Shown here: positions 30,045 through 48,808 of the stretch, piece after piece
Layout: each line of letters begins with the position of its first letter
Position numbering within the stretch: position 1 is the first letter of the stretch
Source: Reichenbachiella ulvae
GTDB taxonomy: Bacteria > Bacteroidota > Bacteroidia > Cytophagales > Cyclobacteriaceae
Assembly (NCBI RefSeq): GCF_025833875.1
Contig: NZ_JAOYOD010000001.1
Coordinates: 372,001 to 436,000, forward strand
DNA length: 64,000 bases
Direction of reading: 5' to 3'
The notes under the pieces: generated by a model
What the model was told of the DNA's origin: nothing
The model's database searches: none
The model's input: only the letters and a program-made list of their open reading frames with translations
Position numbers and translations under genes: made by a program

Positions 30045-31499
30045 TTAGGCCTTTTGAACGTATTGTGGGTTCATCAGATTGTCAGGTGAAAAAAGTTGGT
30101 CCCATTGTGATTGGTTTACTAGCTTTTTTTCTTTGACAGTCAAATCGTAAATGCTTTTTCCTGTTTCCAATGCTTCTTTGGCTATAGAAGAGCATACCTT
30201 ATATCCCAACAATGGATTGAGCAAGGTCACAATACCGATGCTGTTCATTACCATTTCTCTGCAGTGATCTTCGTTGGCAGTGATGCCATCGATACATTTG
30301 CTCCGTAAGGCTGAACAAGCATTGGTCATCCATTGTATGGAGGTAAATAAGCTAAAGGCAATAACAGGTTCCATGACGTTGAGTTGTAATTGCCCTGCCT
30401 CTGAAGCCATTGTTACGGTTACATCCGCCCCTATTACATAGTAGGCGGTTTGGTTGACCATCTCTGGAATGACTGGGTTGACTTTTCCGGGCATGATCGA
30501 TGAACCTGGCTGTAGTCGGGGTAAATTGATTTCGTTTAAACCTGTGCGGGGACCTGAGGATAATAGGCGGAGGTCATTACAGATTTTGGAGATCTTTACG
30601 GCGCTTCTTTTCATTACACCAGAAAGCTGAACATATGCACCTGTGTCTGAGGTGGCTTCTATCAGATCCTCGGATATCTTTAAAGGCAAACCGGTGATTT
30701 CAGTGAGGTAACGAGTAACTAATTCTGGATAACCCTCCGGTGCGTTGACTTTAGTACCAATAGCAGTAGCTCCCATGTTGATTTCTTGAATCAATTTTTT
30801 GCTGTCGCTTAATCGATCTACTTCTTCTAGTATGGTGATAGACCATCCTTTGAATTCATCACCCAAGCTCATCGGTACCGCATCCTGGAGTTGAGTTCGG
30901 CCCATTTTTAGGACATGTCGAAATTCCCTTGCTTTAGCTGCCATTGCATTAGCCAATAATTTCAGTTCCTTTATATAGGCATCTATTCGCAGCAGCAGTG
31001 CAATCCGAAAAGCTGTAGGATATACATCGTTGGTAGACTGCGAACAATTGACATGGTTATTGGGATGACAGATATCGTAGTTGCCTTTGTCATACCCCAT
31101 GTTTTCCAATACTACATTGGCTATTACTTCATTGGCATTCATGTTGATCGATGTGCCAGCGCCCCCTTGAATCAGATCAGTACAAAAATGATCATTTAGT
31201 CTTCCTGATATGATCAGGTCACAAGCTTCCTCTATTTTTTGTCCCAGCTCTGGATCCAGTACGCCCTTTTTGACATTAGCGCGAGCCGCAGCTTTCTTTA
31301 CATAGCCGAGTGCCTCTATCATAAATGGTTCGTGGGAGATAGGTATTCCTGTCACTTGGAAGTTGTCCATGGCACGTCGGGTTTGTACCCCGTAGTAAGC
31401 CTGGTTTGGGATTTTTATTTCTCCAAGAAAATCCTCTTCCTTACGGTAGGGTGTAGCTTTCCCGTTGGAAGCCTTCGCTTTCACGTCTTCAGTCATCAT
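30045..31499 (-). CDS. aspA: Aspartate ammonia-lyase
   Basis: A 484-residue fumarase/aspartase superfamily enzyme that turns L-aspartate into fumarate and ammonia. Diagnostic segments are GGAGTSINMNANEVIAN, HVNCSQSTNDVYPTA, the GRTQLQDAVP block and the superfamily signature GSSIMPGKVNP (about 331-341), which holds the catalytic Ser loop. Length is standard for aspartase. Two ATG codons open the frame. In this locus it would process the aspartate backbone of cyanophycin after the dipeptide is split. It is followed (in its own direction) by a terminator; upstream on the same strand, 30 bp away, is an Lrp/AsnC regulator, probably co-transcribed. Confidence 0.95.
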   Translation of the reverse strand: MMTEDVKAKASNGKATPYRKEEDFLGEIKIPNQAYYGVQTRRAMDNFQVTGIPISHEPFMIEALGYVKKAAARANVKKGVLDPELGQKIEEACDLIISGRLNDHFCTDLIQGGAGTSINMNANEVIANVVLENMGYDKGNYDICHPNNHVNCSQSTNDVYPTAFRIALLLRIDAYIKELKLLANAMAAKAREFRHVLKMGRTQLQDAVPMSLGDEFKGWSITILEEVDRLSDSKKLIQEINMGATAIGTKVNAPEGYPELVTRYLTEITGLPLKISEDLIEATSDTGAYVQLSGVMKRSAVKISKICNDLRLLSSGPRTGLNEINLPRLQPGSSIMPGKVNPVIPEMVNQTAYYVIGADVTVTMASEAGQLQLNVMEPVIAFSLFTSIQWMTNACSALRSKCIDGITANEDHCREMVMNSIGIVTLLNPLLGYKVCSSIAKEALETGKSIYDLTVKEKKLVNQSQWDQLFSPDNLMNPQYVQKA

Positions 31500-31529
31500 T
31501 ATCGTTTTGGGTTTATTCTTAGTAGTTGT

Positions 31530-31997
31530 TTAGTTGGATAGCGGAATGTTTCGGCGAAATGCACAGCCAAAATCTATGAATGATTCTGTTTTTAAAATCC
31601 CCTTGATGCTATCCAGCTTTTCGTAAATGACTTCTCTCATATGCTCATTACTTTTGGCCATCACGCGTAAGAACAGCGTGTAGTTGCCTGTGATGTAATA
31701 GCATTCAACCACTTCAGGAATTTTTTCCAATTCAGCGATGATATCCTTGCTTTGAGAATCGTCCTTTAAGGTCAACCCGGTAAAAGCACTCCATTCATAC
31801 CCGATTTTTCTTTCGTTGATAATGGGTGCGATTTTTTCCAAAATACCATTCTGTTGCATAGCAGATACACGCTGATGAATCATGGTATTGGAAACCCCAA
31901 GTTCATTGGCAATGTGTGAAAAAGCCATTCTCCCGTCTTCTTCCAGGTAACCAAGTATCTTCAGGTCTAACTCGTCGAATTTAATTTTTGTGTGCAT
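31530..31997 (-). CDS. Lrp/AsnC-family transcriptional regulator
   Basis: A 155-residue regulator starting at ATG 31997 (an in-frame TTG sits two codons earlier). The N-terminal HTH reads ELDLKILGYLEEDGRMAFSHIANELGVSNTMIHQRV (about 8-43); the C-terminal RAM ligand-binding domain follows (VVECYYITGNYTLFLRVMAK). Lrp/AsnC proteins bind amino acids, and one placed between divergent aspA and rocD/rocF operons probably senses arginine, ornithine or aspartate. A short inverted repeat (32010-32028) just upstream is a possible operator. Function as the locus regulator is inferred from position. Confidence 0.9.
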   Translation of the reverse strand: MHTKIKFDELDLKILGYLEEDGRMAFSHIANELGVSNTMIHQRVSAMQQNGILEKIAPIINERKIGYEWSAFTGLTLKDDSQSKDIIAELEKIPEVVECYYITGNYTLFLRVMAKSNEHMREVIYEKLDSIKGILKTESFIDFGCAFRRNIPLSN

Positions 31998-32009
31998 GTT
32001 CAAACGTTT

Positions 32010-32028
32010 GTGACAAATGTAATGTCAC
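32010..32028. promoter_or_regulatory. Candidate operator between lrp-like gene and rocD
   Basis: GTGACA (32010-32015) and TGTCAC (32023-32028) form a 6-bp inverted repeat with a 7-base spacer, 12 bp upstream of the regulator's start codon in the divergent, very AT-rich intergenic region. Inverted pairs in this position fit Lrp/AsnC autoregulation. Confidence 0.45.
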
Positions 32029-32130: not shown

Positions 32131-33378
32131 ATGATGGAAATGGAGATCGAAAATGCCAACACTGATGAAATGATCGCAGAAGAATTGAAATATAGCGCGC
32201 ATAATTATCACCCTATGCCCGTGGTGCTGAAAAGCGGAGAGGGCGTGTTTGTAGAAGACGTAGAAGGCAAGAGGTATTATGATTTCTTGTCAGCTTATTC
32301 AGCAGTCAATCAAGGTCATTGTCATCCAAGAATTGTATCAGCTCTCAAGGAGCAAAGCGAAAGGTTAACCTTAACTTCAAGAGCATTTCACAATGATCAA
32401 TTCGGTATTTATGCCAGATATATAACGGAGCTTTTTGGTTATGAAAAGATGCTTCCTATGAATACCGGTGCTGAAGCAGTGGAAACTGCCCTTAAGATTT
32501 GTCGAAAGTGGGCCTATGAAAAAAAAGGAATTGAAGAGGGGCAAGCGATTATTTTGTTTGCATCAGAGAACTTCCATGGAAGAACATTAGCGGTGATTTC
32601 GGCTTCTTCAGACCCAGATAGCCGTGGAGGTTTTGGACCATATCTTCCTGGGATACAACAGGTGAGGTACAACGATTTGAGCGACCTGAAAAGAGCTCTT
32701 GAAAATAAAAATGTAGCCGGATTTATCGTTGAGCCCATTCAGGGTGAAGCCGGGGTGGTGGTACCAGATGATCATTATTTGTCCGAAGCATTTGCACTAT
32801 GTCAGCAGAATCAAGTGTTGATGATAGCCGACGAGATTCAAACGGGTATTGCACGGACTGGAAAGATGCTCTGTGTAGATCATAGTGGAATAAAACCCGA
32901 TATGGTGCTGCTCGGTAAGGCACTCTCAGGAGGAACTGTACCAGTATCTGCGGTACTCTCTAGCTCTGAAATAATGGAAGTGATTCGGCCAGGTCAGCAT
33001 GGATCCACTTATGGGGGTAGTCCATTGGGTTCTGCTGTAGCCATGGCAGCCTTGCAAGTAGTGGTGGACGAGGGGCTAGAAGAAAATGCCAGCAAAATGG
33101 GTGAGATGTTTCGAGAAAGAATAGCTGTTTTGATGGACAAATGTGACCTCATCCAATGTGTCAGAGGAAAGGGATTACTGAATGCTATTGTGATCAATTC
33201 CAGTGAAGATTCTGATTTGGCTATGCGCATTTGTCTGCAGTTGAAGGAAAATGGTTTGCTGGCTAAGCCTACGCATGGAAATAAAATCCGATTAGCGCCA
33301 CCTTTGGTGATCACCGAAGAACAAATGGATCATGCCTTGACTATTATTGAAAGAACTTTTTTGAAATTCAATTCTTAA
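32131..33378 (+). CDS. rocD: Ornithine aminotransferase
   Basis: A 415-residue class III PLP aminotransferase, ornithine--2-oxo-acid type: YDFLSAYSAVNQGHCHPRI, MNTGAEAVETALK, FHGRTLAVISASSDP, VEPIQGEAGVVVPDD and the PLP lysine K263 in LLGKALSGGTVPVSAV. It turns ornithine and 2-oxoglutarate into glutamate-5-semialdehyde and glutamate. It opens the arginine-degrading operon, 20 bp before the arginase gene. Length and motifs are complete. Confidence 0.95.
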   Translation: MMEMEIENANTDEMIAEELKYSAHNYHPMPVVLKSGEGVFVEDVEGKRYYDFLSAYSAVNQGHCHPRIVSALKEQSERLTLTSRAFHNDQFGIYARYITELFGYEKMLPMNTGAEAVETALKICRKWAYEKKGIEEGQAIILFASENFHGRTLAVISASSDPDSRGGFGPYLPGIQQVRYNDLSDLKRALENKNVAGFIVEPIQGEAGVVVPDDHYLSEAFALCQQNQVLMIADEIQTGIARTGKMLCVDHSGIKPDMVLLGKALSGGTVPVSAVLSSSEIMEVIRPGQHGSTYGGSPLGSAVAMAALQVVVDEGLEENASKMGEMFRERIAVLMDKCDLIQCVRGKGLLNAIVINSSEDSDLAMRICLQLKENGLLAKPTHGNKIRLAPPLVITEEQMDHALTIIERTFLKFNS

Positions 33379-33397
33379 CTCATTAACCCGACAAAAG

Positions 33398-34378
33398 ATG
33401 AAGAAAGACTATTGTTTAATTGAAAACAAATCAGAGCTGGGAGCTGGTACTCGTGGCTCTAGTTTGGCTGTAGATGCGATCAGATCTGCTGCTTTGGTAA
33501 AAGGCTCAAATTTTTTTCATGACTTGAAAACCAAAAGCATAGTGCAGAATAACGCAGCGCTCACCTTACCTGGGGGGCATTCTCATGCCAAAAAAATCGA
33601 CGTGATTCGTGAAATCTATCAGGACCTGTGCTATCGCGTATTCGAAACTTTGAGAATCGATCAACAGACACCTATTGTTATTTCTGGTGATCATTCGTCT
33701 GCTGGTGGTACGCTGGCAGGAATAAAGAAAGCTTATCCAGATGCCAAGATTGGTGTCGTATGGATCGATGCGCATGCAGACATGCATTCGCCCTACACGA
33801 CTCCATCTGGCAATGTTCATGGCATGCCGCTGGCAGCTGCTATGGGAATGGACAATCTAGACAATCAAATCAATGAGCCTGATGCGCAGATAGTGAGAGA
33901 TTGGGAGGCATTAAAGCTAACAGGTGGGTACTCACCTAAAATAAATCCTGAAAACCTGGTTTTGATGGGGGTGAGAGATACTGAATCTGCAGAAGACTGT
34001 TTGATCAAAGATCATGGAATTAGAAATGTTACTGTGAGTGAATATAGAAAGAGAGGGAACGCTTCGGTCATTCAGTCAATTTTCGCTGAGGAGTTGGCAG
34101 ATTGTGATAAGGTATATATCTCTTTTGACGTTGACAGTCTGGACTGTGATGAGATTAGCTATGGAACGGGAACACCTGTGAAGGGAGGATTCTTGGTGGA
34201 TGAGGTGGTAGAGATCATCAAAGGGGTCTTTTCGTCTGGTAAGGTTTGTTGCTTCGAAATGGTGGAAGTGAATCCTCTTTTGGACAACAAAGGAAACAAA
34301 ATGGCTGAGGTAGCTCTTGAGGTATTGGAAAATGCATTGCCCCAGCAAACCAGGCAAAACGAAATCTCATATTCTTAA
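33398..34378 (+). CDS. rocF: Arginase
   Basis: A 326-residue manganese arginase of the ureohydrolase family. Metal ligands appear in SGDHSSAGG, WIDAHADMHSP (DAHAD) and SFDVDSLDCDE (DVD); NVHGMPLAAAMG and EMVEVNPLLD are also typical. It converts arginine into ornithine and urea; the ornithine passes to the aminotransferase encoded just upstream. No urease genes are in the window. With the aminotransferase it supplies the arginine branch of cyanophycin breakdown. Agmatinase or formiminoglutamase is less likely given the rocD partner. Confidence 0.93.
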   Translation: MKKDYCLIENKSELGAGTRGSSLAVDAIRSAALVKGSNFFHDLKTKSIVQNNAALTLPGGHSHAKKIDVIREIYQDLCYRVFETLRIDQQTPIVISGDHSSAGGTLAGIKKAYPDAKIGVVWIDAHADMHSPYTTPSGNVHGMPLAAAMGMDNLDNQINEPDAQIVRDWEALKLTGGYSPKINPENLVLMGVRDTESAEDCLIKDHGIRNVTVSEYRKRGNASVIQSIFAEELADCDKVYISFDVDSLDCDEISYGTGTPVKGGFLVDEVVEIIKGVFSSGKVCCFEMVEVNPLLDNKGNKMAEVALEVLENALPQQTRQNEISYS

Positions 34379-34638
34379 TTATCGCAATAGAATATTTGTT
34401 TTTTCGCAACTATTGCGGGTAATGATTGAATTGCTCGCAATAATGTTTGCATTAGACGAATATTATTTCTACCATTGAAATTAAATGAAGGCAGCAGTAT
34501 CAAATAATCAATTCAAATTCACCCCTTGTTTCAAGGTGGCGAGCCTTCTTGGACTACAACCTATATTCAACAATTAAATAGGATTCTACCCTTTTGAATC
34601 CCATCGATGAGTCTTCCTCATCAAGTATTTAATTGTTT

Positions 34639-36921
34639 ATGATGAAATCCTTTTTATTAAGTTTATTTCTGGGAATTTCCCTGATCTGTCAGGCGGAAAA
34701 TGGCAAGTTGCTATTGATTGGTGGCGGTGCAGAATCTGATGCTGAGAATAGCTGGAGCGATGCTCCGTATACCAGGGCAGTAGAGCTGTCAGGCAACAAG
34801 AAGGTGGCTATTATCAGTTATGATTTTGGCTCTGGTGATAACAGCTGGTTGCCAAATTATTTTAAGTCGCGGGGCGCTACAGAAGCAGTCAATATCGAAA
34901 TAGCTAATACCACAGAGGCCAATGACACTCAGCTATATCAGCAGTTGATGGTATATGATGTTCTCTTCTTCAAAGGTGGGGATCAACTCAAGTATTACCA
35001 ATACTACCGTGACAGTGAAGTGACACGCGCAATCAAAGATAAGTATGAGCAGGGAGGGGTGATAGCAGGTACGTCTGCAGGTATGGCGATCCTTTCAGAA
35101 GTTGTTTATACAGCGGATGGACCTTCAGTCTATCCAGACCAGGCCCTGCAAAATGTCCATAACAGTGATATTACGCTTTCCAATGATTTTGTGAATCTCC
35201 TCAGTGGGGGGGTGGTAGATACTCATTTTGCCGAAAGGGGTCGTTTTCCGAGACTTTTGACCTTTATGGGGCGTTGGTATCTAGACCATGGAGACTTTGT
35301 ACTTGGAATAGGAGTGGATGATAAGACGGCTCTTTTCATAGACGAAAACCAAGTGGCTACCGTCTATGGTACAGGTGCTGTTAGTTTTTATCAAATGGAC
35401 AATTTTGAGTCTATTGAGGGGCGACCGCAAAGTAAAAACATCAAGGTCAGGCAATTACTTCATGAACAGCAAATCGACCTAAGTTCAGAAGGTTTACAAG
35501 TTTTTAATTCTGAATCAGCTACGATGAAAGAAGTCGAGCATCTGGGAATGAAAAGGATTTGGATATCTGGTTCTGAGTCTGTCAATCACAATCAATCCAT
35601 GATTGAGTCTTTTTTAGCCAGCAATGAAAGTCAAATAGTGATAGTCTGTAAGGAAGGGTCAGTTTTGGCTGACTCTTACCTTAACTTCTTAGCAGAGCGT
35701 ACCGAACAAGAGGTGTTATTACTAGAAGTCAAAGAACATTCCGAATGTGAAGGGGCCGAGATTAGAAATCTAATCCGAGAAAGCGCCGCATTTGTAATAG
35801 GAGATGTTGATCGAGCTGATTTCATGGCTTTTCTTCAAAATGACCCCAATGGAAAACAACTTTTAAAAAGATGGCAAAGTGATGATAGTTTTCTTGCCTT
35901 TGTCGGTGAGGCGGCTACTCTAGTCGGTGAGACTTTTTGTAGCAATTGCCAAAGCGATGAGTTAAATGCTTACAAAGGGCAATTGGAGTTCGAAACAGGG
36001 TTGGGGCTCTTAAAGTCTTCTATTATAATGACTGAAACTTTTGATCCCAGCAGTTCGGATTTTTATGAAAATAATACTGCAGCTGTTCTATATGCGATGG
36101 TCAATGAATCGCTGCACCATGGTATATACCTCAATCAAAAGTCCTATGCGAGCCTTGAGGCCAAAGGGGGACAACTGGTTTATCAGTCGGCAGGAGAATT
36201 TTCTACTATCATAGTAGAAAATACAAGCACTTCAAATGCACTGGCCAATCAACCGATTAACGCTTCAGGGCAAATTAGAAATGTAGTAGGTTTTGACAGG
36301 ATGAATATCTCATTGGTAGCCGATATGGAAGTACCATTAGGGACTGTCATTTCTAATGGTGTTTTAGAAGAAGCTTTGGAGCCAATGCCTCCTTTGGATG
36401 TGGTCTATGAGTTTCAAGATGAAGGGGTGGAGATTTCTTGGTCCGTTCAGAATCCCGAATGGCAGATTGAAGTGTATCGTTCTACTGATGGTGTCGAATA
36501 CCAATTGATACAGAACCTGTCGGGTGAATCAGAAGGCATTCTCGATTCCAATATTCAATTAAATCAAGCGTATTTTTATAGATTAAATAGTATTGATGAT
36601 CAGGGTAATCGCTCGTGCAGTGTAGAACTGATCGTCGAATCAAAAGTATTATACACAATTGACCCAAAAAGTATGATGCGTTTTGACGTGTTCCCTAATC
36701 CCATCACAAACGGGATAGTGCACATCGGTGGGCCTACTGGACAGAGGCTTCAGGATGTGAGAGTGCTAGACCTTGGCGGTAAGGTCTTGATGAATCGGTC
36801 TGGATTTTATTTGAACCAGAATTTGGATCTATCTCATCTCTCAGCGGGTAGCTATTTGCTTCAGCTGGGAGGTAGAGAAGGTATTGAAACCCACAAAATA
36901 GTAGTAAAAAATGATCAGTAA
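34639..36921 (+). CDS. Secreted cyanophycinase with a second, degenerate S51 domain, FN3 and T9SS sorting domain
   Basis: A 761-residue exported peptidase S51 protein starting at ATG 34639 (a TTG two codons earlier is not needed). Signal peptide to about residue 20. First catalytic domain (about 22-285): KLLLIGGGAESDAENSW, FFKGGDQLKYY, the nucleophile motif GTSAGM with Ser146, and DTHFAERGRFPRLL with His196. A second S51-like domain (about 310-545) keeps the fold marks (GLGLLKSSIIMTETF, HGIYLNQKSYASLE) but reads FVGEAATLVG where GTSAG is expected, so it has no serine. A fibronectin III-like domain (about 585-680) and a type IX sorting domain (VFPNPITNGIVHIGG) finish it. It would cut cyanophycin outside the cell or on its surface into beta-Asp-Arg dipeptides; the dead domain may bind polymer. 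Confidence 0.88.
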   Translation: MMKSFLLSLFLGISLICQAENGKLLLIGGGAESDAENSWSDAPYTRAVELSGNKKVAIISYDFGSGDNSWLPNYFKSRGATEAVNIEIANTTEANDTQLYQQLMVYDVLFFKGGDQLKYYQYYRDSEVTRAIKDKYEQGGVIAGTSAGMAILSEVVYTADGPSVYPDQALQNVHNSDITLSNDFVNLLSGGVVDTHFAERGRFPRLLTFMGRWYLDHGDFVLGIGVDDKTALFIDENQVATVYGTGAVSFYQMDNFESIEGRPQSKNIKVRQLLHEQQIDLSSEGLQVFNSESATMKEVEHLGMKRIWISGSESVNHNQSMIESFLASNESQIVIVCKEGSVLADSYLNFLAERTEQEVLLLEVKEHSECEGAEIRNLIRESAAFVIGDVDRADFMAFLQNDPNGKQLLKRWQSDDSFLAFVGEAATLVGETFCSNCQSDELNAYKGQLEFETGLGLLKSSIIMTETFDPSSSDFYENNTAAVLYAMVNESLHHGIYLNQKSYASLEAKGGQLVYQSAGEFSTIIVENTSTSNALANQPINASGQIRNVVGFDRMNISLVADMEVPLGTVISNGVLEEALEPMPPLDVVYEFQDEGVEISWSVQNPEWQIEVYRSTDGVEYQLIQNLSGESEGILDSNIQLNQAYFYRLNSIDDQGNRSCSVELIVESKVLYTIDPKSMMRFDVFPNPITNGIVHIGGPTGQRLQDVRVLDLGGKVLMNRSGFYLNQNLDLSHLSAGSYLLQLGGREGIETHKIVVKNDQ

Positions 36922-37051
36922 TATGAAATCACATATCATCGATCGTTCCTTGCTTTTCTGTGGTGACGGATCTGCTATTGCTTTGAAATCAGCCCCAAAG
37001 GTGATTGAGAACCAAAGTTGGAAACCCGTGAGCTTACAAAATCTGCAGCCT

Positions 37052-37114
37052 ATTTTCAATAATTGAAAATCAGGGGCACAAAAGTGCTGATAACCTTCAA
37101 ATCAGCGCTTTTCC
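37052..37114. terminator. Terminator and palindrome between cyanophycinase and susC
   Basis: AAAAGTGCTGA (37081-37091) pairs with TCAGCGCTTTT (37103-37113) with one wobble, and ends in T's: a terminator for the cyanophycinase gene. Just before it is the near-perfect palindrome ATTTTCAAT-A-ATTGAAAAT (37052-37070), a possible operator for the following susC operon. Nothing else stands out in 36922-37210 apart from a GAGAAAGC/GCTTCTC pair near 37165-37190. Confidence 0.6.
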
Positions 37115-37210
37115 GATAAGCAAGGAATTATTCCTTATAGAAATATCATTAGTCACTTAACCAGAGAAAGCGATATAGTTGCTTCTCTCGGATCAAATAA
37201 AATATAGAAT

Positions 37211-40200
37211 ATGAATAAATTTTTTACAGCAATCGTTTTGATGCTAATTAGCTTGCCTCAGTTGCAGGCACAAGTATCAGTGAGCGGTCAAGTCATCTCT
37301 GCAGAGGATGGTGTTGCCTTGCCGGGTGTGAATGTCGTTCAAAAGGGCAGCACTGTAGCCACTGTGACAGATGTGGATGGCAATTATTCGATAAAACTGA
37401 CACAGGAAGATGCCGTGTTAACCTTTTCTTTTATCGGGATGGAAAACCAGGAGGTTGAGGTTCTGGGCAGGTCTGTAGTTGATGTAGAGTTGCAATCCGA
37501 TACCAAACAATTGGATGAGGTTTTGGTAGTAGGATACGGGGTGCAAAAGCGGACCGACGTGACTAGCTCGGTACAACAGGTAGATTCTGACCTATTAGAA
37601 AATGTACCTGCATCCTACAGTTTTGAAAATGCACTGCAAGGTCAAACAGCAGGGGTCAATATTTCTAGCTCATCGGCTACACCCGGTGCAGCCATCAATA
37701 TGAACATCCGTGGTGTAACATCTATCTCAGCTAGTAGTCAGCCTCTCTTTGTTATAGATGGAGTGCCTTTGGTCTCCAGAAATAACTCAGCGCTTAACTC
37801 TAATATCCAACCTGTAAATCCTCTCGCAGATATCAATAGCAACGACATAGAGAGTATCACTGTACTCAAAGATGCTGCTGCCGCTTCGGTTTATGGATCA
37901 AGAGGTGCGAATGGTGTTATTTTAATTACAACCAAAAGAGGTGCCGTAGGTAAAACCAAGTTTAATGTGGGCTACTACACGGGGGTTTCAGAAATCAGCA
38001 ATGTGCCAGAATTAATGAACGCTAAACAGTGGATTGAGTTCCTGAATGTGGCAGCAGAAAATGATGGGTTGGGAGAAAATTATTGGAACTCTCGATTGGG
38101 AGATCCAAATGACCCAAATCTTAAAACTTACAATGCCTATGATGAAATATTTAGAACAGGCATTACACACAATGCAGATGTGAGTATCCAGGGAGGAAAC
38201 GAAAAGACCAAGTTTTACCTATCAGGCAATTATTACAATCAAGAAGGTATTCAGGTAGGGACGGCCTTTGAAAGAATGTCAGGACGATTGAATATTGATC
38301 ACTCTGTCAATAGTAAGTTGGGTGTGGGTACCAATGTGATGGTGAGCAGAACCAATCATGCCAGAACCATCAATGAAAATGACGAGTATGGAGTGGTAAT
38401 TAATGCCCAGGCTTGGGATCCTACAGCCCCATTGAAGAACGATGAAGGTAACTACACAAATCCATTCTCTTATTATGGCTGGTGGGCTTTAGAAAATCCA
38501 CTTTTCATCGCTGAGCAATATCGAAACGATGCTATTACAGATCGGGTATTAGGGACAGCTTTTCTGACTTATGATATCTTTGATGACTTGACCTTCAAGA
38601 CTACCTGGTCCGCTGATATGAGTGGTTTGACAGAGGAGTCTTTTACTCCTGCAGGTGGAAACGAAACAGATATTGGCGAGGGGATTTTTGCAACATATGA
38701 TGAACTGACCTGGGTAGGAGAGTCTACCTTGACCTACAATAAGACCCTTGGATTAAAGCATAACGTCAGTGTATTGGCGGGCTACTCCATTCAGGAAAGC
38801 AGAGCGTTGTTTTCTGAAACGTTAGGGACAAATTTCCCTTCCAACAATGTATATAAAATATCCACAGCTGCTACTACCACGGGTTCTTCTGGAGAAACCA
38901 GTTACGGATTTCAGTCTTTCATAGGAAGATTGAATTATAACTTTGCAAGTAAGTATTTGGTGAGCCTATCTATTCGAACTGACGCTTCCTCTAGATTCGG
39001 TACTAATAATCAATATGGAACCTTTCCATCTGCTTCTTTAGGCTGGGTGGTATCAGAGGAGTCCTTCTTGTCTGGCCAAGATGTACTAAACTATTTAAAG
39101 TTTAGAGCCAGTTATGGCATAATTGGCAATGCAGAGATATCCAATTTCGGATGGAGGGGAGTGTATAATCTGGAGTCTCCATATAATGGAGCGGGAGGTA
39201 TAGCACCTTCCACTCTTGAGAATCCTAATCTTGGATGGGAACAGACTACTCAATTGAACATTGGTACTGACTTTCAACTATTCGACGGTAGAATTGGAGT
39301 AACAGGTGACTATTTTGAGAAAACGACAGAGGACTTGCTTTTCAATGCTGATGTACCAGGAACAACTGGTTTTGCCAATATTCCTTCCAATTTCGGAAGT
39401 ATTAAGAACACCGGATTTGAGATTTCTGTTAATGCGAACCTATTGAGCTTAGGAGATTTTAAATGGGATATGAATGCCAATTTCTCCCATATCAAAAACG
39501 AAGTTGTAGAGATTCAAAATGATGGTCAAATTGTCTCAAGGAACTTCATTCTTCAGGAGGGAGAATCCTTGAGTCAGTTGCATTTGATAAAGTTTTTAGG
39601 TGTTGATCCATTAACTGGTGATGCGGTTTTTGAAGATGTGAATAGTGATGGAGTGATCAATTCGGATGACAAGCAGGCTGTTGGTTCGGGTATCCCTACA
39701 ATGTTTGGTGGATGGACCAATTCCTTTTCTTACAAGGGATTGAGCTTGAGTGTATTGTTTCAATATGTTGGAGGTAACAAAATTTTCAACCAAAGCAGAC
39801 ATGCCTATGAGAATTACGGGTCGCTTCAGAGTGGACTACCTTATGGTAATCAAAGCATCGAATCGTTGGATTACTGGAAAGAACCTGGCGATATCACTCG
39901 CATTCCAAGACCTTCTTTGGCAGGACCGAATGAGTCGAATGCGCAATGGCAGAGGTTTAGTACTCAATACCTGGAAGATGGTGACTTTGTGAGATTGAAA
40001 AATGTAAAACTATCCTATAATCTGCCTAGTGACTGGGTGAGTAAAGTTGGATTGGAAACTGTGAATATTTATCTGCAGGGACGAAATCTCTATACCTGGA
40101 CGCAGTACAAAGGCTTTGATCCTGAAGTGTCTACTAACACAAGTAGTCAGGAGGATTTGAATACGCTTCAAGGTGAAGATTTTGGAACACTGGGACAAGC

Positions 40201-41615: not shown

Positions 41616-42980
41616 ATGAAATTCATATATAATATATCAAAATATCTTCCGTTCATGCTCGTCCTTTTGATGACAGCTTGTTTGGAAGAGGAGGAGACGG
41701 CTCTGATTCCACAAGCAGACTTCAGTATAGAGGATGGGGCTGTGTTGAAGCAGGGTGAGACTATCAATTTTGTGAATCACTCCGAAGAGTCTTATTCTTA
41801 TTTATGGTCATTTGGGGATGGTCAAACTTATGTAGGAGTCAATGCTTCGCATGTCTATAATCTGCCTGGAGACTATACGGTGACCTTGAAAGCAGAGGCA
41901 GAAGGATCTCGCTCGATTAGCAGTATGGATATAAAGATTGAAGGCCTGGTTCCAACTGCTTCTTTCAGTGTAGAAGATGGCGATAATCTTAAGGTTTCTA
42001 TTCCTGTGAGTTTTGTGAACGAGACTATGGATGCGGTCAGCTATAGCTGGTCCTTTGGTGATGCTGCAAACTCTACGAGCACAGAAGAGTCTCCAACATT
42101 TACCTATGATCAGCCGGGTGATTACACTGTGACTTTGACTGCTACTGGTACTGGAGGAAATGCCGTGTCAGAACAAGTCATCACAGTCAATCCAAACAAT
42201 TATGAGCTGTATTTTATCGATAATGATGCGGGCAAAATGAGAAAAATCGACTTAAACAATCCTACTGTGGCGGTAGATGTGTTTGATCTACCGGGTTTCT
42301 GCATGGGGATGGCATATGATGCGACCAACGAGGAGTTCTACTACAGCGATGACGATACGAAGGCGGTTTATAAAAATACCTTGACCGGTAGTGCTCAAAT
42401 GACAGTAGCTTCAGGATTGGCAGACCCACGAGACATTGCCTTGGACATAGCGGATAGTTATATGTATGTGGCGGAGCGAGCAGGTGATAAAATTACCAGA
42501 GTGGACTTGATTGATAATTCGACGCTCACCTACTACAGCTCGACTGATGATGCCAACTTCTTATTGCCTGTTGGTTTGGATATCTATGATGGCAACTTAT
42601 ATGCCACTGCGGTGGAGATAGATTCAGAGACAGTTTGGAAAGGAAGTATGTCTGAGATTTCTCTGACCAGAATCATCGATTACGGTGCAGGCGGATATGG
42701 CTATGGACTAGAAGTGGACAAAGTAAACCAGAAGGTTTATTTCGATGATACGGATGGAGGCAAGTTGTTACGTGCAGACCTGGATGGTAGCAATATCGAG
42801 GAGGTTGGTAGCAGTGTAGATCGCGTTTATGGTATTGCCATCAACAATGAAACGGGCAAGGTGTACTGGGTAGACCGCAATGGGTTGTTCAAAGTCGCTA
42901 ATCTGGATGGAACAGAAGAGGGGCTCCTAGTTGATTTAGCGGTAGATGTACGTGGATTAATAATTCGTAAAGTAGACTAA
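41616..42980 (+). CDS. PKD and YWTD-propeller surface lipoprotein A
   Basis: A 454-residue lipoprotein (LMTAC, Cys22). Two PKD domains are seen (about 28-105 and 110-192, each with YxWSFGD and PGDYTVTL), followed by a six-bladed YWTD/NHL-like beta-propeller (about 195-454, repeats such as YFDDTDGGKLLRADLDGSNIEEV). It begins 17 bp after susD, in the position where SusE/SusF-like surface glycan-binding proteins normally stand. The architecture is unlike SusE/F; it may bind the peptide polymer on the cell surface. Related to the next gene, which has one PKD domain. Confidence 0.8.
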   Translation: MKFIYNISKYLPFMLVLLMTACLEEEETALIPQADFSIEDGAVLKQGETINFVNHSEESYSYLWSFGDGQTYVGVNASHVYNLPGDYTVTLKAEAEGSRSISSMDIKIEGLVPTASFSVEDGDNLKVSIPVSFVNETMDAVSYSWSFGDAANSTSTEESPTFTYDQPGDYTVTLTATGTGGNAVSEQVITVNPNNYELYFIDNDAGKMRKIDLNNPTVAVDVFDLPGFCMGMAYDATNEEFYYSDDDTKAVYKNTLTGSAQMTVASGLADPRDIALDIADSYMYVAERAGDKITRVDLIDNSTLTYYSSTDDANFLLPVGLDIYDGNLYATAVEIDSETVWKGSMSEISLTRIIDYGAGGYGYGLEVDKVNQKVYFDDTDGGKLLRADLDGSNIEEVGSSVDRVYGIAINNETGKVYWVDRNGLFKVANLDGTEEGLLVDLAVDVRGLIIRKVD

Positions 42981-42982: not shown

Positions 42983-44107
42983 ATGAGGATAAATAAATAT
43001 ATAGGTAAAGCAGCAGGTATATGCCTGTTGGCATGGGCGGCTTTGAGCTGTGAGGAAGAGTTTCCAGTTCCGGAAAGCAGCGAAGTAGCAGCTGATTTTA
43101 GCATCACATTTTCAGATGGTGATTTTGCACCCAGTGTGGTGGTTTTTGAATCTACTTCTTTGCTCAAAGAAGGTATTACAGAGGTGAGCTATGTATGGAA
43201 TTTCGGTGATGGAACCAGCGGTTCAGGATCCTCAGTCACTCATAGCTATGATATGCCAGGAGATTATAGGGTATCCATGGTGGCAAGCACTGGAGCGGAT
43301 TTGGACGCCATTGAGAAGGTGTTAACCGTGAGAGATCCGAATGCCCTGCAAGTGGATATCTTGTTTATGGATGCGGGAACCATGGCTATCGAAAACCTGA
43401 ATGGAACCTCATTTGAGGTGGATGGATTTGGTACAGGACTAGCATATGATGAGACATCGGAGACCTTGTATTATACCGACGCAGATAATGGAACGCTGAT
43501 TTCTTCTGCGGTGGATGGGTCAGCCATGACAGTTGTAGCTACTGGATTGGATGATCCAAGAGATCTGGCTCTAGATATCGAAGCAGGTATGGCATATGTT
43601 GCAGATAGAGGGTTGCAGGCTATTTTGGAGGTTAATCTGAGCGATGGTACTGTTTCCACCTTATACGATGTAGCTTCTGATGGTCTAGGCGAGTTGCCAG
43701 TCGGTATCGATTTTTATGATGGTAATATCTATGTGACTTGTGTAGAGATCGATGCAGAGGCGGTTTGGAAAGGCAATGTGGATGGCTCTGGGATCACTAG
43801 AATACTTGACTACTCTGGAGCTGGATACGGCTATGGCATTGCTGTAGATTCTGTTAACAAAAAGATCTATTTTGACAATACAGACAATTCTGAAATTCTG
43901 ATGGCCAATTTGGATGGAACTGGTGTACAACAGGTAATAGCCACGAGCAATCGGGTATATGGACTAGCAGTAGACAATACCAATCAAAAATTGTACTGGA
44001 CAGAAAGAAATACGGGGAATGTGTACATGTCTGATTTGGATGGTTCTAACCGTGTTACCATAGGTTCAGGTTATACTGATCCTAGAGGTTTGGTTTTTAT
44101 TCCATAA
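42983..44107 (+). CDS. PKD and YWTD-propeller surface lipoprotein B
   Basis: A 374-residue lipoprotein (AALSC, Cys23) with one PKD-like domain (about 30-115, VWNFGDGTSGSGSSVTH, PGDYRVSMV) and a beta-propeller (about 120-374) with blades like YFDNTDNSEILMANLDGTGVQQV and LYWTERNTGNVYMSDLDGSNR. It is a paralogue of the protein encoded just before it (GxGYGYGIAVDSVNKKIYFD is nearly the same in both), 2 bp apart. Probably the pair forms part of a surface complex with SusC/SusD for ligand capture. Catalytic residues are not evident. Confidence 0.8.
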   Translation: MRINKYIGKAAGICLLAWAALSCEEEFPVPESSEVAADFSITFSDGDFAPSVVVFESTSLLKEGITEVSYVWNFGDGTSGSGSSVTHSYDMPGDYRVSMVASTGADLDAIEKVLTVRDPNALQVDILFMDAGTMAIENLNGTSFEVDGFGTGLAYDETSETLYYTDADNGTLISSAVDGSAMTVVATGLDDPRDLALDIEAGMAYVADRGLQAILEVNLSDGTVSTLYDVASDGLGELPVGIDFYDGNIYVTCVEIDAEAVWKGNVDGSGITRILDYSGAGYGYGIAVDSVNKKIYFDNTDNSEILMANLDGTGVQQVIATSNRVYGLAVDNTNQKLYWTERNTGNVYMSDLDGSNRVTIGSGYTDPRGLVFIP

Positions 44108-44130
44108 GGATTATTTGGAAGTTGTAAATG

Positions 44131-44156: not shown

Positions 44157-44165
44157 ACTTTAATC

Positions 44166-45032
44166 ATGAAAAAAACGATAATAATTGTACTGTGCATTTT
44201 AGGCTTTATTACTTGCAATGAAACTAAGAATCAATCTGCTGGAGTAGGAAGGGAACAGGCCAAAGGAAAGCTGTTTGTGATAGGTGGAGGCAAAAGGCCT
44301 GAAGCCATGATCAAACGCCTGGTACAGGAGTCATCTGTTTCAGATGGGGGGTATTTGATCATATTGCCCATGTCTAGTGCAGAGCCAGATTCTTCTGTCT
44401 ACTATGCCAGAAAGCAGTTTGATGCATTGGGGTTGCAAGACAAGGTGTTCGGTATGAACATCCATGGGGATTCCGTTTCTGAAGCACAGATCGACAGTTT
44501 GAAAAAGGCAGCCCTGATCTATATCTCTGGTGGGGATCAAAACCGATTTATGTCTGCCATAGAGGGATCACAAATACAATCGGCCATACAGGAAGCCTAC
44601 CATTCAGGGGCAACCATAGCCGGTACTAGTGCGGGAGCAGCTATGATGAGCGAAGTGATGATTACCGGTGATGAGCGTAGGTATCCTGAATATAGTAGTA
44701 CGTTTCAAAATATAGAATCTGACAATATAGTGACGGATCAAGGGTTGGGGCTGATCAAAAGTGCGATCATAGATCAACATTTTGTCAAGCGAAGCAGATA
44801 CAACAGACTATTGAGTGCGGCGATTGAATATCCGGCCCTTTTGGGCATTGGGATAGATGAATCGACAGCTGTTTTGGTCAGCGGAGATAGCGCAGAAGTA
44901 GTCGGTGAGTCGCAGGTAGTTCTATTTAGAAATCAGGGAGAAAAACCCTCTGAGAATGGATCTAAAATAGGAATACGCGATCTTAGGGTAGATATACTGC
45001 TGCCGGGGGAGAAGTTTTCTCTTAAGCGCTAG
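44166..45032 (+). CDS. cphB: Cyanophycinase lipoprotein
   Basis: A 288-residue peptidase S51 protein. I start it at ATG 44166 (MKKTIIIVLCILGFITC); the longer TTG-started frame from 44115 would place 17 residues before a clear lipoprotein signal with Cys17. KLFVIGGGKRPEAMIKRL, YISGGDQNRFMSAI, the nucleophile motif GTSAGA with Ser155, the GLGLIKSAIIDQHF block with His205 and GIGIDESTAVLVSG are as in cyanophycinase. It is a single-domain form and membrane-anchored, likely in the periplasm or at the surface. It would finish degradation of imported cyanophycin pieces to beta-Asp-Arg dipeptides. The two cyanophycinases in this locus differ strongly, suggesting extracellular and periplasmic steps. 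Confidence 0.92.
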   Translation: MKKTIIIVLCILGFITCNETKNQSAGVGREQAKGKLFVIGGGKRPEAMIKRLVQESSVSDGGYLIILPMSSAEPDSSVYYARKQFDALGLQDKVFGMNIHGDSVSEAQIDSLKKAALIYISGGDQNRFMSAIEGSQIQSAIQEAYHSGATIAGTSAGAAMMSEVMITGDERRYPEYSSTFQNIESDNIVTDQGLGLIKSAIIDQHFVKRSRYNRLLSAAIEYPALLGIGIDESTAVLVSGDSAEVVGESQVVLFRNQGEKPSENGSKIGIRDLRVDILLPGEKFSLKR

Positions 45033-45062: not shown

Positions 45063-46442
45063 ATGAAGATAAAACTACCCGATACCATTGTTTTGTTGCT
45101 AATCATACTTGTCTTTTCCTGTGTGCTTACTTGGATCGTGCCATCTGGTGAATTTGACCGAATCGAACGAGATGGGAGAGAATTGGTCGTGTCTGGTTCT
45201 TATCATGTTGTTTCGCCTAATCCGGTTGGTTTCTTTCAATTGATCATGGCACCTATTAGAGGGTTTTCGGGATCAGCCGAAATCATAGCCTTCATATTTT
45301 TCGTAGCAGGTGCCTTTGGAATAATCAATCGTAGTGGTGCCATATCTGCGGGTCTTCGTCGACTGGTTGATGGCTATAATACCAATAGAAAAAAGAGGTG
45401 GATCATCCCGGTGTTGACGTTATTCTTTTCTATGGCTGGCGCTACTTTTGGAATGAGTGAAGAAGTTCTGGTTTTTATCTTGTTGACTTTGCCATTGTCA
45501 TTTTCATTAGGATATGATTCCTTCATGGGAGTAGCCATCCCTTTTTTAGGGGCTGGTGCCGGATTTGCAGGGGCTTTTATCAATCCGTTTACAGTAGGGA
45601 TTGCCCAGGGAATCGCAGAGCTGGCTCCCTTTAGTGGATGGGAATACCGAGTGATAGTTTGGTTCATATTCACTAGTGTCACGATAGCATTTTTGATGCG
45701 ATATGCTGCACGATTAGAAAAGGACCCTAAGATTAGCCTCAATTATCAAGAGGATCAGAAATCTAAGCATCGCCACATTGAAACAGATCAAGAAGAATTC
45801 AATGGAGCACATCGATGGGTCTTGATTACACTGGCCCTGGGCTTGGCATTTCTTATCGTAGGGGTCAATAGATGGGATTGGTACATTACGGAAATATCTG
45901 CTTTGTTTTTGGTTATGGGTATGATTTCTGCTCTGATTGCAAGAGTTGATATGCAAGAAGCCATTGATGCTTTTATGGCTGGAGCGGCAGAGATGATCAA
46001 GGTCTGCTTTGTGATAGGTATCGCCCGAGGCATTATCATAGTGGCTTCTGAAGGGACCATAATAGACACCATGTTGTACTATACCTCTACTGCTGTCGAA
46101 GGGTATCCGAATACGCTCTCTATTCAACTCATGTTTTATGTACAGACTTTTTTGAATTTCTTTTTGCCCTCCGGTTCGGGACAGGCCGCTTTGACCATGC
46201 CGATAATGGCGCCTCTCAGTGATATTATAGGAGTGTCAAGGCAAACAGCAGTTTTAGCATTTCAGCTCGGAGATGGACTTTCTAATATGGTGATCCCTAC
46301 GAGTGGAGTCACGATGGGGGTGCTTACACTTTCGAATATCTCGTACAAGAAATGGCTTCAATGGATATGGCCTCTTATGCTGATCTACTTCGTTTTGGCC
46401 ATGATTTTACTCATTCCTCCCACTTTGGTTTTTAATTGGTGA
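45063..46442 (+). CDS. yfcC: YfcC-family inner-membrane carrier
   Basis: A 459-residue polytopic membrane protein, with about 11-13 hydrophobic segments, of the YfcC family (C4-dicarboxylate/basic amino acid carrier superfamily, related to DcuC and ArcD). Family features: VPSGEFDR after the first helix, GMSEEVLVFILLTLPLSFSLGYD, FAGAFINPFTVGIAQGIA and the C-terminal FFLPSGSGQAALTMPIMAPLSD. In E. coli-type genomes the substrate is uncertain. Between a cyanophycinase and an isoaspartyl peptidase that lacks a signal peptide, it is the natural candidate for bringing beta-Asp-Arg into the cytoplasm; alternatively it imports arginine or exports a product. Inference only. Confidence 0.85.
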   Translation: MKIKLPDTIVLLLIILVFSCVLTWIVPSGEFDRIERDGRELVVSGSYHVVSPNPVGFFQLIMAPIRGFSGSAEIIAFIFFVAGAFGIINRSGAISAGLRRLVDGYNTNRKKRWIIPVLTLFFSMAGATFGMSEEVLVFILLTLPLSFSLGYDSFMGVAIPFLGAGAGFAGAFINPFTVGIAQGIAELAPFSGWEYRVIVWFIFTSVTIAFLMRYAARLEKDPKISLNYQEDQKSKHRHIETDQEEFNGAHRWVLITLALGLAFLIVGVNRWDWYITEISALFLVMGMISALIARVDMQEAIDAFMAGAAEMIKVCFVIGIARGIIIVASEGTIIDTMLYYTSTAVEGYPNTLSIQLMFYVQTFLNFFLPSGSGQAALTMPIMAPLSDIIGVSRQTAVLAFQLGDGLSNMVIPTSGVTMGVLTLSNISYKKWLQWIWPLMLIYFVLAMILLIPPTLVFNW

Positions 46443-46511: not shown

Positions 46512-47453
46512 ATGAAAAATAAATATTCATTGGCTATTCATGGGGGAGCAGGCACTATACTAAAGTCTAGCATGTCTGCTGAAAAGGAAGCCGCATATAA
46601 AGGAGTATTAGAGTCCTCGTTGTTGGCAGGAGAGGAAATATTGAAAAATGGTGGGAGTAGTTTGGATGCTGTGGAGGCATCTGTCATTGTGCTTGAAGAT
46701 AGTGACTTATTCAATGCTGGCAAGGGGTCTGTTTTCACTGCAGACGAAACACACGAATTAGAAGCTTCCATCATGTGTGGTAGAACCCTTCAGGCAGGAG
46801 CGATAGGTGCTGCCACAAGTATCAAAAATCCTGTGATGGCCTCTAGAAAAATTTTAGACTCTTCAGATTATGTGTATTTGTCTGGTCAGGGAGCTGATCA
46901 ATTTGCCAAAGAACAAGGATGTGAAATGGTTCCCAATAGCTACTTCTATTCTGACTTTAGGTATGAACAGCTACAGGCAGCCAGAGGGAGTTCGAGGATG
47001 AAACTTGATCATAGTACGGATAAAAAATTTGGAACTGTGGGTGCAGTAGCATTGGATCAACATGGGAATTTGGCTGCTGCAACTTCTACCGGTGGTTTGG
47101 TTAATAAGAAATATGGAAGACTTGGAGATAGCTCAGTGATAGGGTCAGGTGTCTATGCTAATGATGCAACTTGCGCTATTTCTTGTACTGGATATGGCGA
47201 ATTTTTCTTGCGCGGTGTGGTGGCCCATGATATCTCTTGTTTGATGGAATACAAGGGACTGTCATTAGAAGAGGCCGCTCAGTTGGTGATCAATCAAAAG
47301 CAAGTTGCATTGGGTGGAGAAGGTGGAATTATTGGAGTAGATCACAACGGTAATTGTAGCCTGGTTTTCAACTCAGAAGGAATGTATAGAGGTTCTATCA
47401 ATGATATGGATCCAATGCCACAGGTTGGCATCTATGGAGATATGCTGTCTTAA
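46512..47453 (+). CDS. iaaA: Plant-type isoaspartyl peptidase / asparaginase
   Basis: A 313-residue Ntn-hydrolase with the N-terminal LAIHGGAGT, the LDAVEASVIVLEDSDLFNAGKGSVF block and the self-cleavage site FGTVGAVALD, where Thr175 becomes the new N-terminal nucleophile after autoproteolysis. NKKYGRLGDSSVIGSGVYA and CTGYGEFFLRG complete the active site. There is no signal peptide, so it works in the cytoplasm. Members of this family split beta-aspartyl dipeptides, including beta-Asp-Arg, the end product of cyanophycinase, into aspartate and arginine. Those feed aspA and rocF/rocD in the same locus. Confidence 0.93.
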   Translation: MKNKYSLAIHGGAGTILKSSMSAEKEAAYKGVLESSLLAGEEILKNGGSSLDAVEASVIVLEDSDLFNAGKGSVFTADETHELEASIMCGRTLQAGAIGAATSIKNPVMASRKILDSSDYVYLSGQGADQFAKEQGCEMVPNSYFYSDFRYEQLQAARGSSRMKLDHSTDKKFGTVGAVALDQHGNLAAATSTGGLVNKKYGRLGDSSVIGSGVYANDATCAISCTGYGEFFLRGVVAHDISCLMEYKGLSLEEAAQLVINQKQVALGGEGGIIGVDHNGNCSLVFNSEGMYRGSINDMDPMPQVGIYGDMLS

Positions 47454-47545
47454 TCAGCACGAAAGGCATACTTATAAAGACTAAATGAGGCTATTTAGGT
47501 ATCACTTACGGGTGATATCCATTATTAACTTTTAAATAATAAGTG

Positions 47546-48808
47546 ATGAAAAAGTATGTATTGATTTTAGTCTTGACTACCTGTATGTTTCGTGTTTATT
47601 CCCAGGAGGATCGATTGAGCCAATTGAGTATGGATGAATTACTCAATGTTAATTTGGAAAAAACGGCTCAACCGATCGTTTGGGATCAAAGGGCAAAAAG
47701 CCAAGAGGTGATAAATCTGGCAGTAATGCTACCCAGTAGTAAGTTTCCAGGTTTTTCGAAAGAGCTGATGCAGGCAGCCCAACTGGCAATGGATCAGATC
47801 AATGCGTCTGGAGGAGTTTTAGGCAAAGATTTGAACCTAGTGTTAGTTGATGATGCTGCGGATCTGGATTTATGTTTGTTACAGGCAGATACCTTGATTC
47901 GTCGATATGGAGTGAGATATATAATAGGTCCAACCAATTCTGAAAGGGTCATTGCTTTGTCTAAGGAGTTTGAAGAGGAGGATTGGTATCTGATATCTCC
48001 ATCAGCTTCGGCGATTGAAATCAGTAACCTCAATGATGATAGGGTATTTAGAACAGCTGCGTCAGATGTGTTACAGGCTTCTTTTGCGACCAAATATGCC
48101 ATTGAGACATTGAGAAGAAGAAAGGCTAGTTTATTCTATATTGACAATGCTTATGGTCAAGGGCTAGCCCAGGAATTCAAAAGGAAATTTGAAGAACGGG
48201 GTGGTCAGGTAATTGCAGAGGAGTATTATAGCCCACTCGTGGATTTGCAGACGTATGATATCACTCAGAAAATAGAAGCATTGATAAGTGATGGGCCGGA
48301 TTTGATTTACCTCGTTTCCAATCATGTGGATATAGAATTGATGGCTCCCAAAATTCAAATGCCTGATGATGTCATCATTCTAGCAACGGATGCGGCCAAA
48401 GGTGAGTATGGCACTGTGGCAGCCAATGTACTCGATGGAATGATTGGAACCTCATCAGCATTTACCACACAATCTTATTTTTTAGATTCATACAAGATCA
48501 AGTATGGAACAGTTCCCACATTTTTAGAGAGTGCGGATGTATATGATATTGTGTATTTGTATGCCGGAGCTATATTGACCTCAGCAGTGAGCGATGAGTC
48601 GATCCATCAGTCTTTGCAGGATTTTTCTATGAAGGGTGCAAAAATGGACGCATCCCATTGGTCTCAGATTATCGAACTAATTAGCCGTGGTAAGAAGATA
48701 GACTTTATCGGTTCTACAGGTTCTCTTGACTTTCTGCCTAATGGGGATATACAAGATAGATCCATAGAGGTTTGGGAGCTAGATGCAGGAGATATTTTAA
48801 TTAAATAA
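47546..48808 (+). CDS. Periplasmic amino acid-binding-like protein (PBP type I fold)
   Basis: A 420-residue exported protein (signal peptide to about residue 20, RVYSQ) with the type I periplasmic-binding fold of Leu/Ile/Val-binding proteins: VINLAVMLPSSKFPGFSKELMQAAQLAMDQIN, IIGPTNSERVIALSKEF, DNAYGQGLAQEFKRKFEERGG and ESADVYDIVYLYAGAIL. The mature N-terminus contains LSQLSMDELLNVNLEK, like the short motif in some outer-membrane receptors. No ABC permease or ATPase genes are near, so it may be a sensor or a periplasmic carrier of dipeptide or amino acid. ATG 47546 is chosen over the GTG just before it. A terminator follows. Confidence 0.8.
   Translation: MKKYVLILVLTTCMFRVYSQEDRLSQLSMDELLNVNLEKTAQPIVWDQRAKSQEVINLAVMLPSSKFPGFSKELMQAAQLAMDQINASGGVLGKDLNLVLVDDAADLDLCLLQADTLIRRYGVRYIIGPTNSERVIALSKEFEEEDWYLISPSASAIEISNLNDDRVFRTAASDVLQASFATKYAIETLRRRKASLFYIDNAYGQGLAQEFKRKFEERGGQVIAEEYYSPLVDLQTYDITQKIEALISDGPDLIYLVSNHVDIELMAPKIQMPDDVIILATDAAKGEYGTVAANVLDGMIGTSSAFTTQSYFLDSYKIKYGTVPTFLESADVYDIVYLYAGAILTSAVSDESIHQSLQDFSMKGAKMDASHWSQIIELISRGKKIDFIGSTGSLDFLPNGDIQDRSIEVWELDAGDILIK

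Follow-up and report, generated by a model that had tools for sequence, protein, structure and literature searches.

The 64,000-nucleotide stretch of Reichenbachiella ulvae DNA analyzed here (contig NZ_JAOYOD010000001.1, positions 372,001 to 436,000; hereafter the window) contains, between positions 30045 and 48808, thirteen genes and two short open reading frames (ORFs) that together form a candidate locus for the utilization of cyanophycin, the nitrogen-storage polymer of cyanobacteria. All genes named in an earlier annotation made from the letters of the DNA (the sequence-only reading) were recovered in place, each matching its family; absent from that list were a LivJ/ANF-type protein (47543-48808) and the short ORFs at 34485-34577 and 36923-37066. 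The start codon listed there for the cyanophycinase S51b, a TTG at 44115, is probably too far upstream, and an ATG is available at 44166. The features of the locus are as follows.

30045..31499, minus strand: aspA, aspartate ammonia-lyase (NF008909, 717 bits, cut-off 510)
31530..32003, minus strand: Lrp/AsnC-type regulator (PF01037, PF13404)
32131..33378, plus strand: ornithine aminotransferase, OAT (TIGR01885, 648 bits, cut-off 378)
33398..34378, plus strand: arginase-family protein, rocF-like (PF00491 over cut-off; TIGR01229 204 bits, below the cut-off of 228)
34485..34577, plus strand: leader ORF 1, 30 codons, C-terminus LLGLQPIFNN-stop, stop 56 nt upstream of the listed S51a start
34633..36921, plus strand: S51a, exported S51 protein with a type IX secretion system (T9SS) tail (family, residue and structure comparisons)
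36923..37066, plus strand: leader ORF 2, 47 codons, C-terminus SLQNLQPIFNN-stop, stop 145 nt upstream of SusC
37211..40237, plus strand: SusC-type TonB-dependent transporter (PF07715, PF13715)
40249..41598, plus strand: SusD-type lipoprotein (PF07980, PF14322)
41616..42980, plus strand: PKD1, lipoprotein with PKD and LDL-receptor-b repeats (PF18911, PF00058)
42983..44107, plus strand: PKD2, lipoprotein with PKD and propeller (family match and structure model)
44166..45032, plus strand: S51b, predicted canonical exported cyanophycinase (TIGR02069, 159.5 bits; alternative start TTG 44115)
45063..46442, plus strand: YfcC/DcuC-family inner-membrane carrier (PF03606, 364 bits, over cut-off; NF008611, 398 bits, below the cut-off of 500)
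46512..47453, plus strand: IaaA, cytosolic-type isoaspartyl aminopeptidase (PF01112, 335 bits, over cut-off; NF007589, 340 bits, below the cut-off of 567)
47543..48808, plus strand: orphan LivJ/ANF-type substrate-binding protein (PF01094, PF13458)

Loci for comparison were drawn from a species-genome collection and from order (390 genomes, evenly sampled), class, phylum and family samples. The S51b search of the species-genome collection yielded 69 loci; from the order sample, all 27 matches of at least 190 bits and 13 weaker matches were included; and from the 34 S51b matches besides the host in the family sample, 20 were added, 6 were already in the set, and 8 lower-scoring ones were left out. 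In most stretches, S51b was flanked by about 15 kb on its upstream side and 4 kb on its downstream side, or else by 10 kb on each, and ORFs were taken from a purpose-written greedy caller. Duplicates between samples were removed, four in the earlier counts and 12 in the later ones, which concern the leader ORFs and the set of 141 loci.

A SusC gene was found within 10 kb of S51b in 17 of the 27 S51b genomes of the order sample, all 17 of which carry YfcC or IaaA, and in 79 of the 141 non-duplicate S51b loci from all samples. Control loci built around lower-scoring S51 genes contained SusC in 0 of 13 cases, in 3 of which the ORF filter had dropped the S51 gene itself. The search for the same gene set in other Bacteroidota, called for by the sequence-only reading, recovered contiguous SusC-SusD-PKD-PKD-S51b in 33 of the 141 loci and the complete twelve-gene order in one relative of the same genus. 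Clustering of these genes exceeds chance. Other builds were also encountered: distant loci (L051, L223, L226, L233, L237-L239) combine a cytosolic M20-type peptidase with S51b and YfcC, and L051 and L053, which were scanned, also have a regulator of the RpiR type or a TonB receptor that lacks a SusD partner. This combination represents a further form of cyanophycin locus.

The S51 proteins identify the probable substrate. S51b exceeds the cut-off of TIGR02069, the CphB/CphE cyanophycinase equivalog model (159.5 versus 126.6 bits), and has 9 of the 9 compared CphB residues, which are retained across its orthologues; we take these to be the triad Ser132-His174-Glu201 plus Gln101, Asp172, Gln173 and Arg178/180/183 in CphB numbering. 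S51a has 7 of 9, the alignment giving Q173T and E201D. Its first domain (residues ~22-262) has the cyanophycinase fold and is followed by a second, S51-like domain (~298-535) that is probably degenerate, an FN3-like domain and the T9SS tail. In structure comparisons, solved cyanophycinases outrank dipeptidase-E enzymes by far for both proteins, and both N-termini are of the export type. The host genome has two S51 matches, S51a and S51b; a third paralogue near YfcC/IaaA is seen elsewhere (L247:1445-2506, and the ends of L114, L115, L117, L119, L123 and L125).

Lipobox-like motifs, called by a simple rule, were found in 34 of 34 SusD, 21 of 22 PKD1 and 14 of 16 PKD2 orthologues, often followed by acidic residues. 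The propeller predicted earlier for PKD2 was borne out by the structure model (predicted local distance difference test, pLDDT, 88.4), which has a PKD domain and a propeller, with about 24 strands; the 50 solved-structure matches listed for it are mostly LRP-family receptor propellers, some with peptides bound in the structure. For the window SusC, the closest solved structure is 8aa4 and the next is RagA, RagAB being a SusCD-type peptide importer. In a tree built from 50 SusCs located near S51b plus 26 further SusCs, made by a quick method and with some long branches, the window SusC clusters with four other near-S51b SusCs, and the near-S51b label requires 7 changes, at least 5 of them forced by well-supported branches; SusC and S51b therefore appear to have been repeatedly joined or separated. 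A single SusC clade specific for cyanophycin had been expected and was not borne out by the tree. The locus shares the adjacent SusC/SusD pair of polysaccharide utilization loci (PULs), but we call it PUL-like rather than a PUL because Pfam scans of the 13 genes between 30045 and 48808 found no carbohydrate-active enzyme families.

Two unrelated isoaspartyl dipeptidases, IaaA or IadA, occupy the same slot in these loci; in some, M20-type peptidases are found there, and in L214 an M28-type peptidase lies near S51b. When IaaA was aligned to 2zak/2zal, the solved beta chain began at residue 175, which fits the Ntn family, where the catalytic threonine opens the beta chain. IaaA is cytosolic in some loci and exported in others, as called by a simple hydrophobicity rule rather than a trained predictor, and the presence of YfcC follows this division. 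In the first set of loci, YfcC was near exported IaaA in 0 of 15 cases and near cytosolic IaaA in 15 of 16, the window counted; for all dipeptidase types (IaaA, IadA and two M20 groups) the values were 1 of 36 and 36 of 44. Among loci added after the hypothesis, YfcC accompanied 1 of 9 exported and 14 of 21 cytosolic enzymes (Fisher p 0.014), or 0 of 5 and 4 of 5 for IaaA only. Because some of these loci were already known when the M20 groups were introduced, just the IaaA comparison among them is a clean test. In the one exported case accompanied by YfcC (L245), the apparent export seems to stem from a misassigned start codon. In its simplest reading, this sequence pattern suggests that YfcC imports beta-Asp-Arg into the cytosol. 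The family annotation of the carrier (NF008611) is putative basic amino acid antiporter; we know of no record of beta-Asp-Arg as a substrate of the YfcC family, and none of the papers searched links YfcC with cyanophycin.

The amino-acid arm is kept in order by one relative of the same genus, G1242 (stretch L247), which carries aspA, Lrp, OAT, arginase, S51a, SusC, SusD, PKD1, PKD2, S51b, YfcC and IaaA in the order of the window, with protein identities of 43-81% and the extra third S51 before IaaA; its aspA, in the equivalent position, is 75% identical to the window copy and its Lrp 81%. In six other members of the genus, a comparison covering S51b, arginase and aspartase, with SusC and the remaining genes not sought, yielded nothing for S51b at E 1e-40 or for the window arginase at 1e-10, and aspartase matches did not exceed 39%. 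The window-type arginase occurs in 2 of the 8 genus members, the same two that carry S51b. In addition, five loci of family f74 (L214, L215, L217, L218 and L220) have Lrp and OAT in the neighbourhood of S51b and SusCD, and arginase is present in one of the five. Since the order is kept in G1242, the six relatives lack S51b, this arginase and this aspartase, and the f74 loci have Lrp and OAT, we regard the arginine/aspartate arm as part of the system, as had been proposed. The further claim that every step from polymer to central metabolism has a candidate gene holds for the locus as far as OAT; the next enzyme, pyrroline-5-carboxylate (P5C) dehydrogenase, is encoded far from the locus (779 bits), so that not all pathway steps lie within it. 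Two further arginase-family genes of the host are also far away.

The intergenic gaps before S51a and SusC contain the two leader ORFs, of 30 and 47 codons, with the common C-terminus LQPIFNN-stop. This motif was first spotted by eye in the window and L247. A scan of 184 non-duplicate loci, a set mostly chosen for S51b and not genome-wide, gave 43 leaders, whereas three Markov controls and the reversed sequence yielded none; across all scanned loci, window included, 45 ORFs end in LQP[IV]F[ND][CN]-stop, mostly 45-180 nt upstream of the next gene. Further conserved positions are Lys -14 (41 of 45), Leu -10 (41 of 45) and Gly/Asn -8 (44 of 45). Conservation is limited to about 15 C-terminal residues up to the stop, and the N-termini differ in length and sequence. 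The last seven codons and the stop are written as 43 distinct codon strings among the 45 leaders, while the peptide is nearly invariant, and heterozygosity across these seven codons is 0.203 at the first codon position, 0.038 at the second and 0.531 at the third. This codon signature, together with the near-invariant peptide, therefore indicates selection on the translated peptide ending at the stop codon.

The position of the leaders is selective. Within S51b loci they were found before S51a-type genes, SusCs and 3 of 44 IaaAs, and before none of 79 SusD, 81 PKD, 141 S51b and 50 YfcC genes; the single instance among 1,489 unlabelled genes precedes a frame that itself ends as a leader. Loci without S51b had leaders before 0 of 28 SusCs and 0 of 608 unlabelled genes, and none was found in two host stretches (L275, L276) that contain the P5C dehydrogenase and a further gene of the arginase family. 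Tandem leaders occur before SusC (L200, L216) and before an S51a-type gene (L216), and the third S51 of L247 has its own leader.

TnaC and SpeFL are ribosome-arrest leader peptides, and the LQPIF ORFs resemble them as short upstream ORFs with the C-terminus at the stop before amino-acid catabolic genes; no sequence in common with these peptides was noted, and stalling of the LQPIF ORFs is a prediction from sequence. With 45 instances of a short upstream coding ORF whose C-terminus is conserved at the stop, the LQPIF ORFs are likely arrest leader peptides. TnaC also appears among the literature matches listed (PMC8429421). In the 80 S51b loci with SusC, a leader is present in 23 and FecR adjoins SusC in 21; the two never occur together, and 36 loci lack both. 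This suggests that the leader and the extracytoplasmic function (ECF) sigma/FecR pair are alternative switches, although leader and FecR lineages differ, so that the exclusion may reflect mere kinship. A group of mostly flavobacterial loci (L003, L005-L009, L011, L013, L014, L035, L054, L210) has FecR, most with ECF sigma, and an exported M20 peptidase; leader, IaaA and YfcC were not found in them. Folding of the leader-to-gene gaps gave a mean z of -1.8 (17 SusC cases) and -1.0 (17 S51a cases), and an Rfam search of 34370-37260 with E up to 1 gave no match. A search of 5.77 billion predicted proteins returned one look-alike, for leader ORF 2; the motif string occurs in one of the papers searched, an unrelated one, and the literature matches listed include no prior description of such peptides. 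A DNA operator was considered for the CGCAA...TTGCG repeats (34381-34442) and set aside, as the single palindrome there equals the chance expectation, and promoter and terminator scans gave counts no higher than chance.

Taken together, these comparisons make it probable that the locus captures cyanophycin on the cell surface, cuts it to beta-Asp-Arg, imports the products and feeds aspartate and arginine to metabolism, with the leader ORFs likely gating expression. The earlier proposal that SusC/SusD serves cyanophycin in a PUL-type system gains support from the S51b site, the co-location with SusC, the dipeptidases and the failure of any host gene to exceed the cut-off for CphA1, the cyanophycin synthetase. 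In the proposed mechanism, SusD and the PKD-propeller lipoproteins would grip the insoluble polymer, and S51a, secreted by T9SS, and S51b, exported and possibly lipid-anchored, would cleave it to oligomers and beta-Asp-Arg, which would enter the periplasm via SusC. The isodipeptide would then cross the inner membrane via YfcC and be cleaved by cytosolic IaaA; aspartase would convert aspartate to fumarate and ammonia, and arginase and OAT would yield urea and glutamate semialdehyde, to be oxidized by the P5C dehydrogenase encoded elsewhere, with Lrp presumably controlling this arm. The leaders before S51a and SusC would stall the ribosome at their own stop codon with a pathway metabolite, for which arginine or beta-Asp-Arg are guesses. 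A more specific proposal, which we offer tentatively and hold at close to an even chance, is that LQP[IV]F[ND][CN]-stop defines a new family of nascent-peptide sensors gating Bacteroidota cyanophycin loci, arresting with arginine or beta-Asp-Arg in place of the ECF-sigma/FecR switch of other lineages, and that YfcC imports beta-Asp-Arg.

Several findings count against parts of this picture. The sequence-only reading had two exported S51 cyanophycinases, which holds for S51b; S51a, with its two substitutions, falls just short of the TIGR02069 cut-off (123.4 versus 126.6 bits). The lipobox-like motif is present in just 24 of 87 S51b orthologues, so anchoring of S51b is uncertain. The closest further SusCs, at 46-47% identity, are from genomes without an S51b orthologue, and their neighbours (4 of 5 scanned) are mostly unrelated genes, one with a DcuC-family carrier. 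In ten of the 27 S51b genomes of the order sample, the 10 kb on either side of S51b contain no SusC; nine of the ten lack SusC, YfcC and IaaA there, 2 of the nine loci being on 7-8 kb contigs, and the tenth (L112) has YfcC and IaaA with SusC 12 kb away. Of the 27, 7 have CphA1, 3 of these 7 with SusC, and for both reasons S51b is not invariably a scavenger enzyme. On the S51b tree, the YfcC pattern amounts to 2-3 independent contrasts with 0 opposing, which puts significance out of reach, and, within 3 kb, YfcC is missing from six loci with a cytosolic M20 peptidase and from two with a cytosolic IaaA. Leaders cover the loci partially, standing before 18 of 65 S51a-type genes and 16 of 86 SusCs in S51b loci, and a conserved hairpin, terminator or RNA structure 3' of the leaders was looked for and none was seen. 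Finally, IaaA-type enzymes are promiscuous, according to PMC10206079.

That promiscuity, RagA among the closest solved SusCs, and the M20-type peptidases (M28-type in L214) in the dipeptidase slot are what would be expected if the locus fed on isoaspartyl-rich or ordinary peptides such as protein debris, with the S51 proteins acting as aspartyl peptidases of general function and SusCD as a peptide importer resembling RagAB. We consider this unlikely, given that the compared cyanophycinase residues are kept across S51b orthologues, that the arginine arm goes together with the block, and that dipeptidase-E structures rank far below cyanophycinases for both S51 proteins. Recycling of the host's own cyanophycin store is a very improbable alternative. 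Related S51 genes do occur with CphA1 and IaaA in storage operons without SusCD nearby (L145 and L146, from the family and genus of G274), as does CphA1 in the S51b genomes mentioned above, but the best CphA1 match in the host reached 73.5 bits against a cut-off of 850 in an assembly 98.77% complete, and own-store turnover is rejected on this ground; moreover, the S51 N-termini are of the export type, and SusCD and lipoproteins would be pointless for an internal store. For the leaders, it is doubtful, if a real possibility, that the LQPIF ORFs are short functional or signalling peptides, or serve translational coupling only, and the missing hairpin or terminator 3' of them would agree with this. 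Arrest at the stop, which we favour, better fits conservation confined to the last ~15 residues with varying N-termini, and placement before S51a, SusC, IaaA or the third S51 (S51c) and never before SusD, PKD, S51b or YfcC.

The kind of locus described here is already known, a Bacteroidetes locus having been reported in 2017, reportedly with a transport complex homologous to polysaccharide utilization loci. Like it, the window clusters cyanophycinase (S51a/b), isoaspartyl dipeptidase (IaaA) and transporters (SusCD, YfcC), the combination that marks a cyanophycin utilization locus. To our knowledge, RagAB-type importers, which share the SusCD pair, have no link with cyanophycinase. PMC10206079 cites Ben Hania et al. 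2017 (doi 10.1111/1462-2920.13639) for the scavenging locus of Salinivirga cyanobacteriivorans, in which iadA takes the place of IaaA, and reports that 45 of 52 genomes lacking cphA1 cluster cyanophycinase with dipeptidase. As in the window, S51 proteins of two types, of which one bears a Por secretion domain, are described for Salinivirga and a Balneolaeota strain in PMC6243061; the PKD-propeller lipoproteins, the Lrp-OAT-arginase-aspartase arm and the LQPIF leaders of the window may set it apart from Salinivirga. In Citromicrobium JLT1363, a TonB receptor beside cyanophycinase led Tang et al. 2012 to predict cyanophycin uptake from the neighbourhood (PMC3400609); the excerpt mentions no SusD. 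Cyanophycinase or cyanophycin genes are also mentioned in passages of PMC8880816, PMC11573002, PMC2536512, PMC7564069 and PMC12590107, and no other SusC-type cyanophycin system is described in the titles or abstract openings among the literature matches listed. Storage operons share S51 and IaaA with the window, and differ in having the synthetase and no SusCD nearby. Seemingly new are the LQPIF leaders, which appear undescribed, the association of YfcC with cytosolic dipeptidases, and the two-domain build of S51a.

At the 3' end of the block, the orphan LivJ-type gene (47543-48808) follows IaaA without adjoining permease genes. It is probably accessory and was found in none of the other locus stretches examined, most of which, L247 included, stop soon after the locus. 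The block is flanked by a tyrosine-recombinase-type integrase and a transposase-type gene and may have moved as an island. A tRNA adjoining the integrase was discarded, as the weak Rfam tRNA-like match was not reproduced by ARAGORN (sites of these features: 49306-50649 on the minus strand, 50807-50858 and 27425-28249).

Our findings point to a recognizable, widespread locus that can serve as a genome and metagenome marker for cyanophycin eaters, and would be a case of SusCD working on a polymer of isopeptides. Nearly absent from annotation, the leader ORFs lend themselves to the search for a new nascent-chain sensor, and the YfcC pattern provides a testable substrate for this carrier family.

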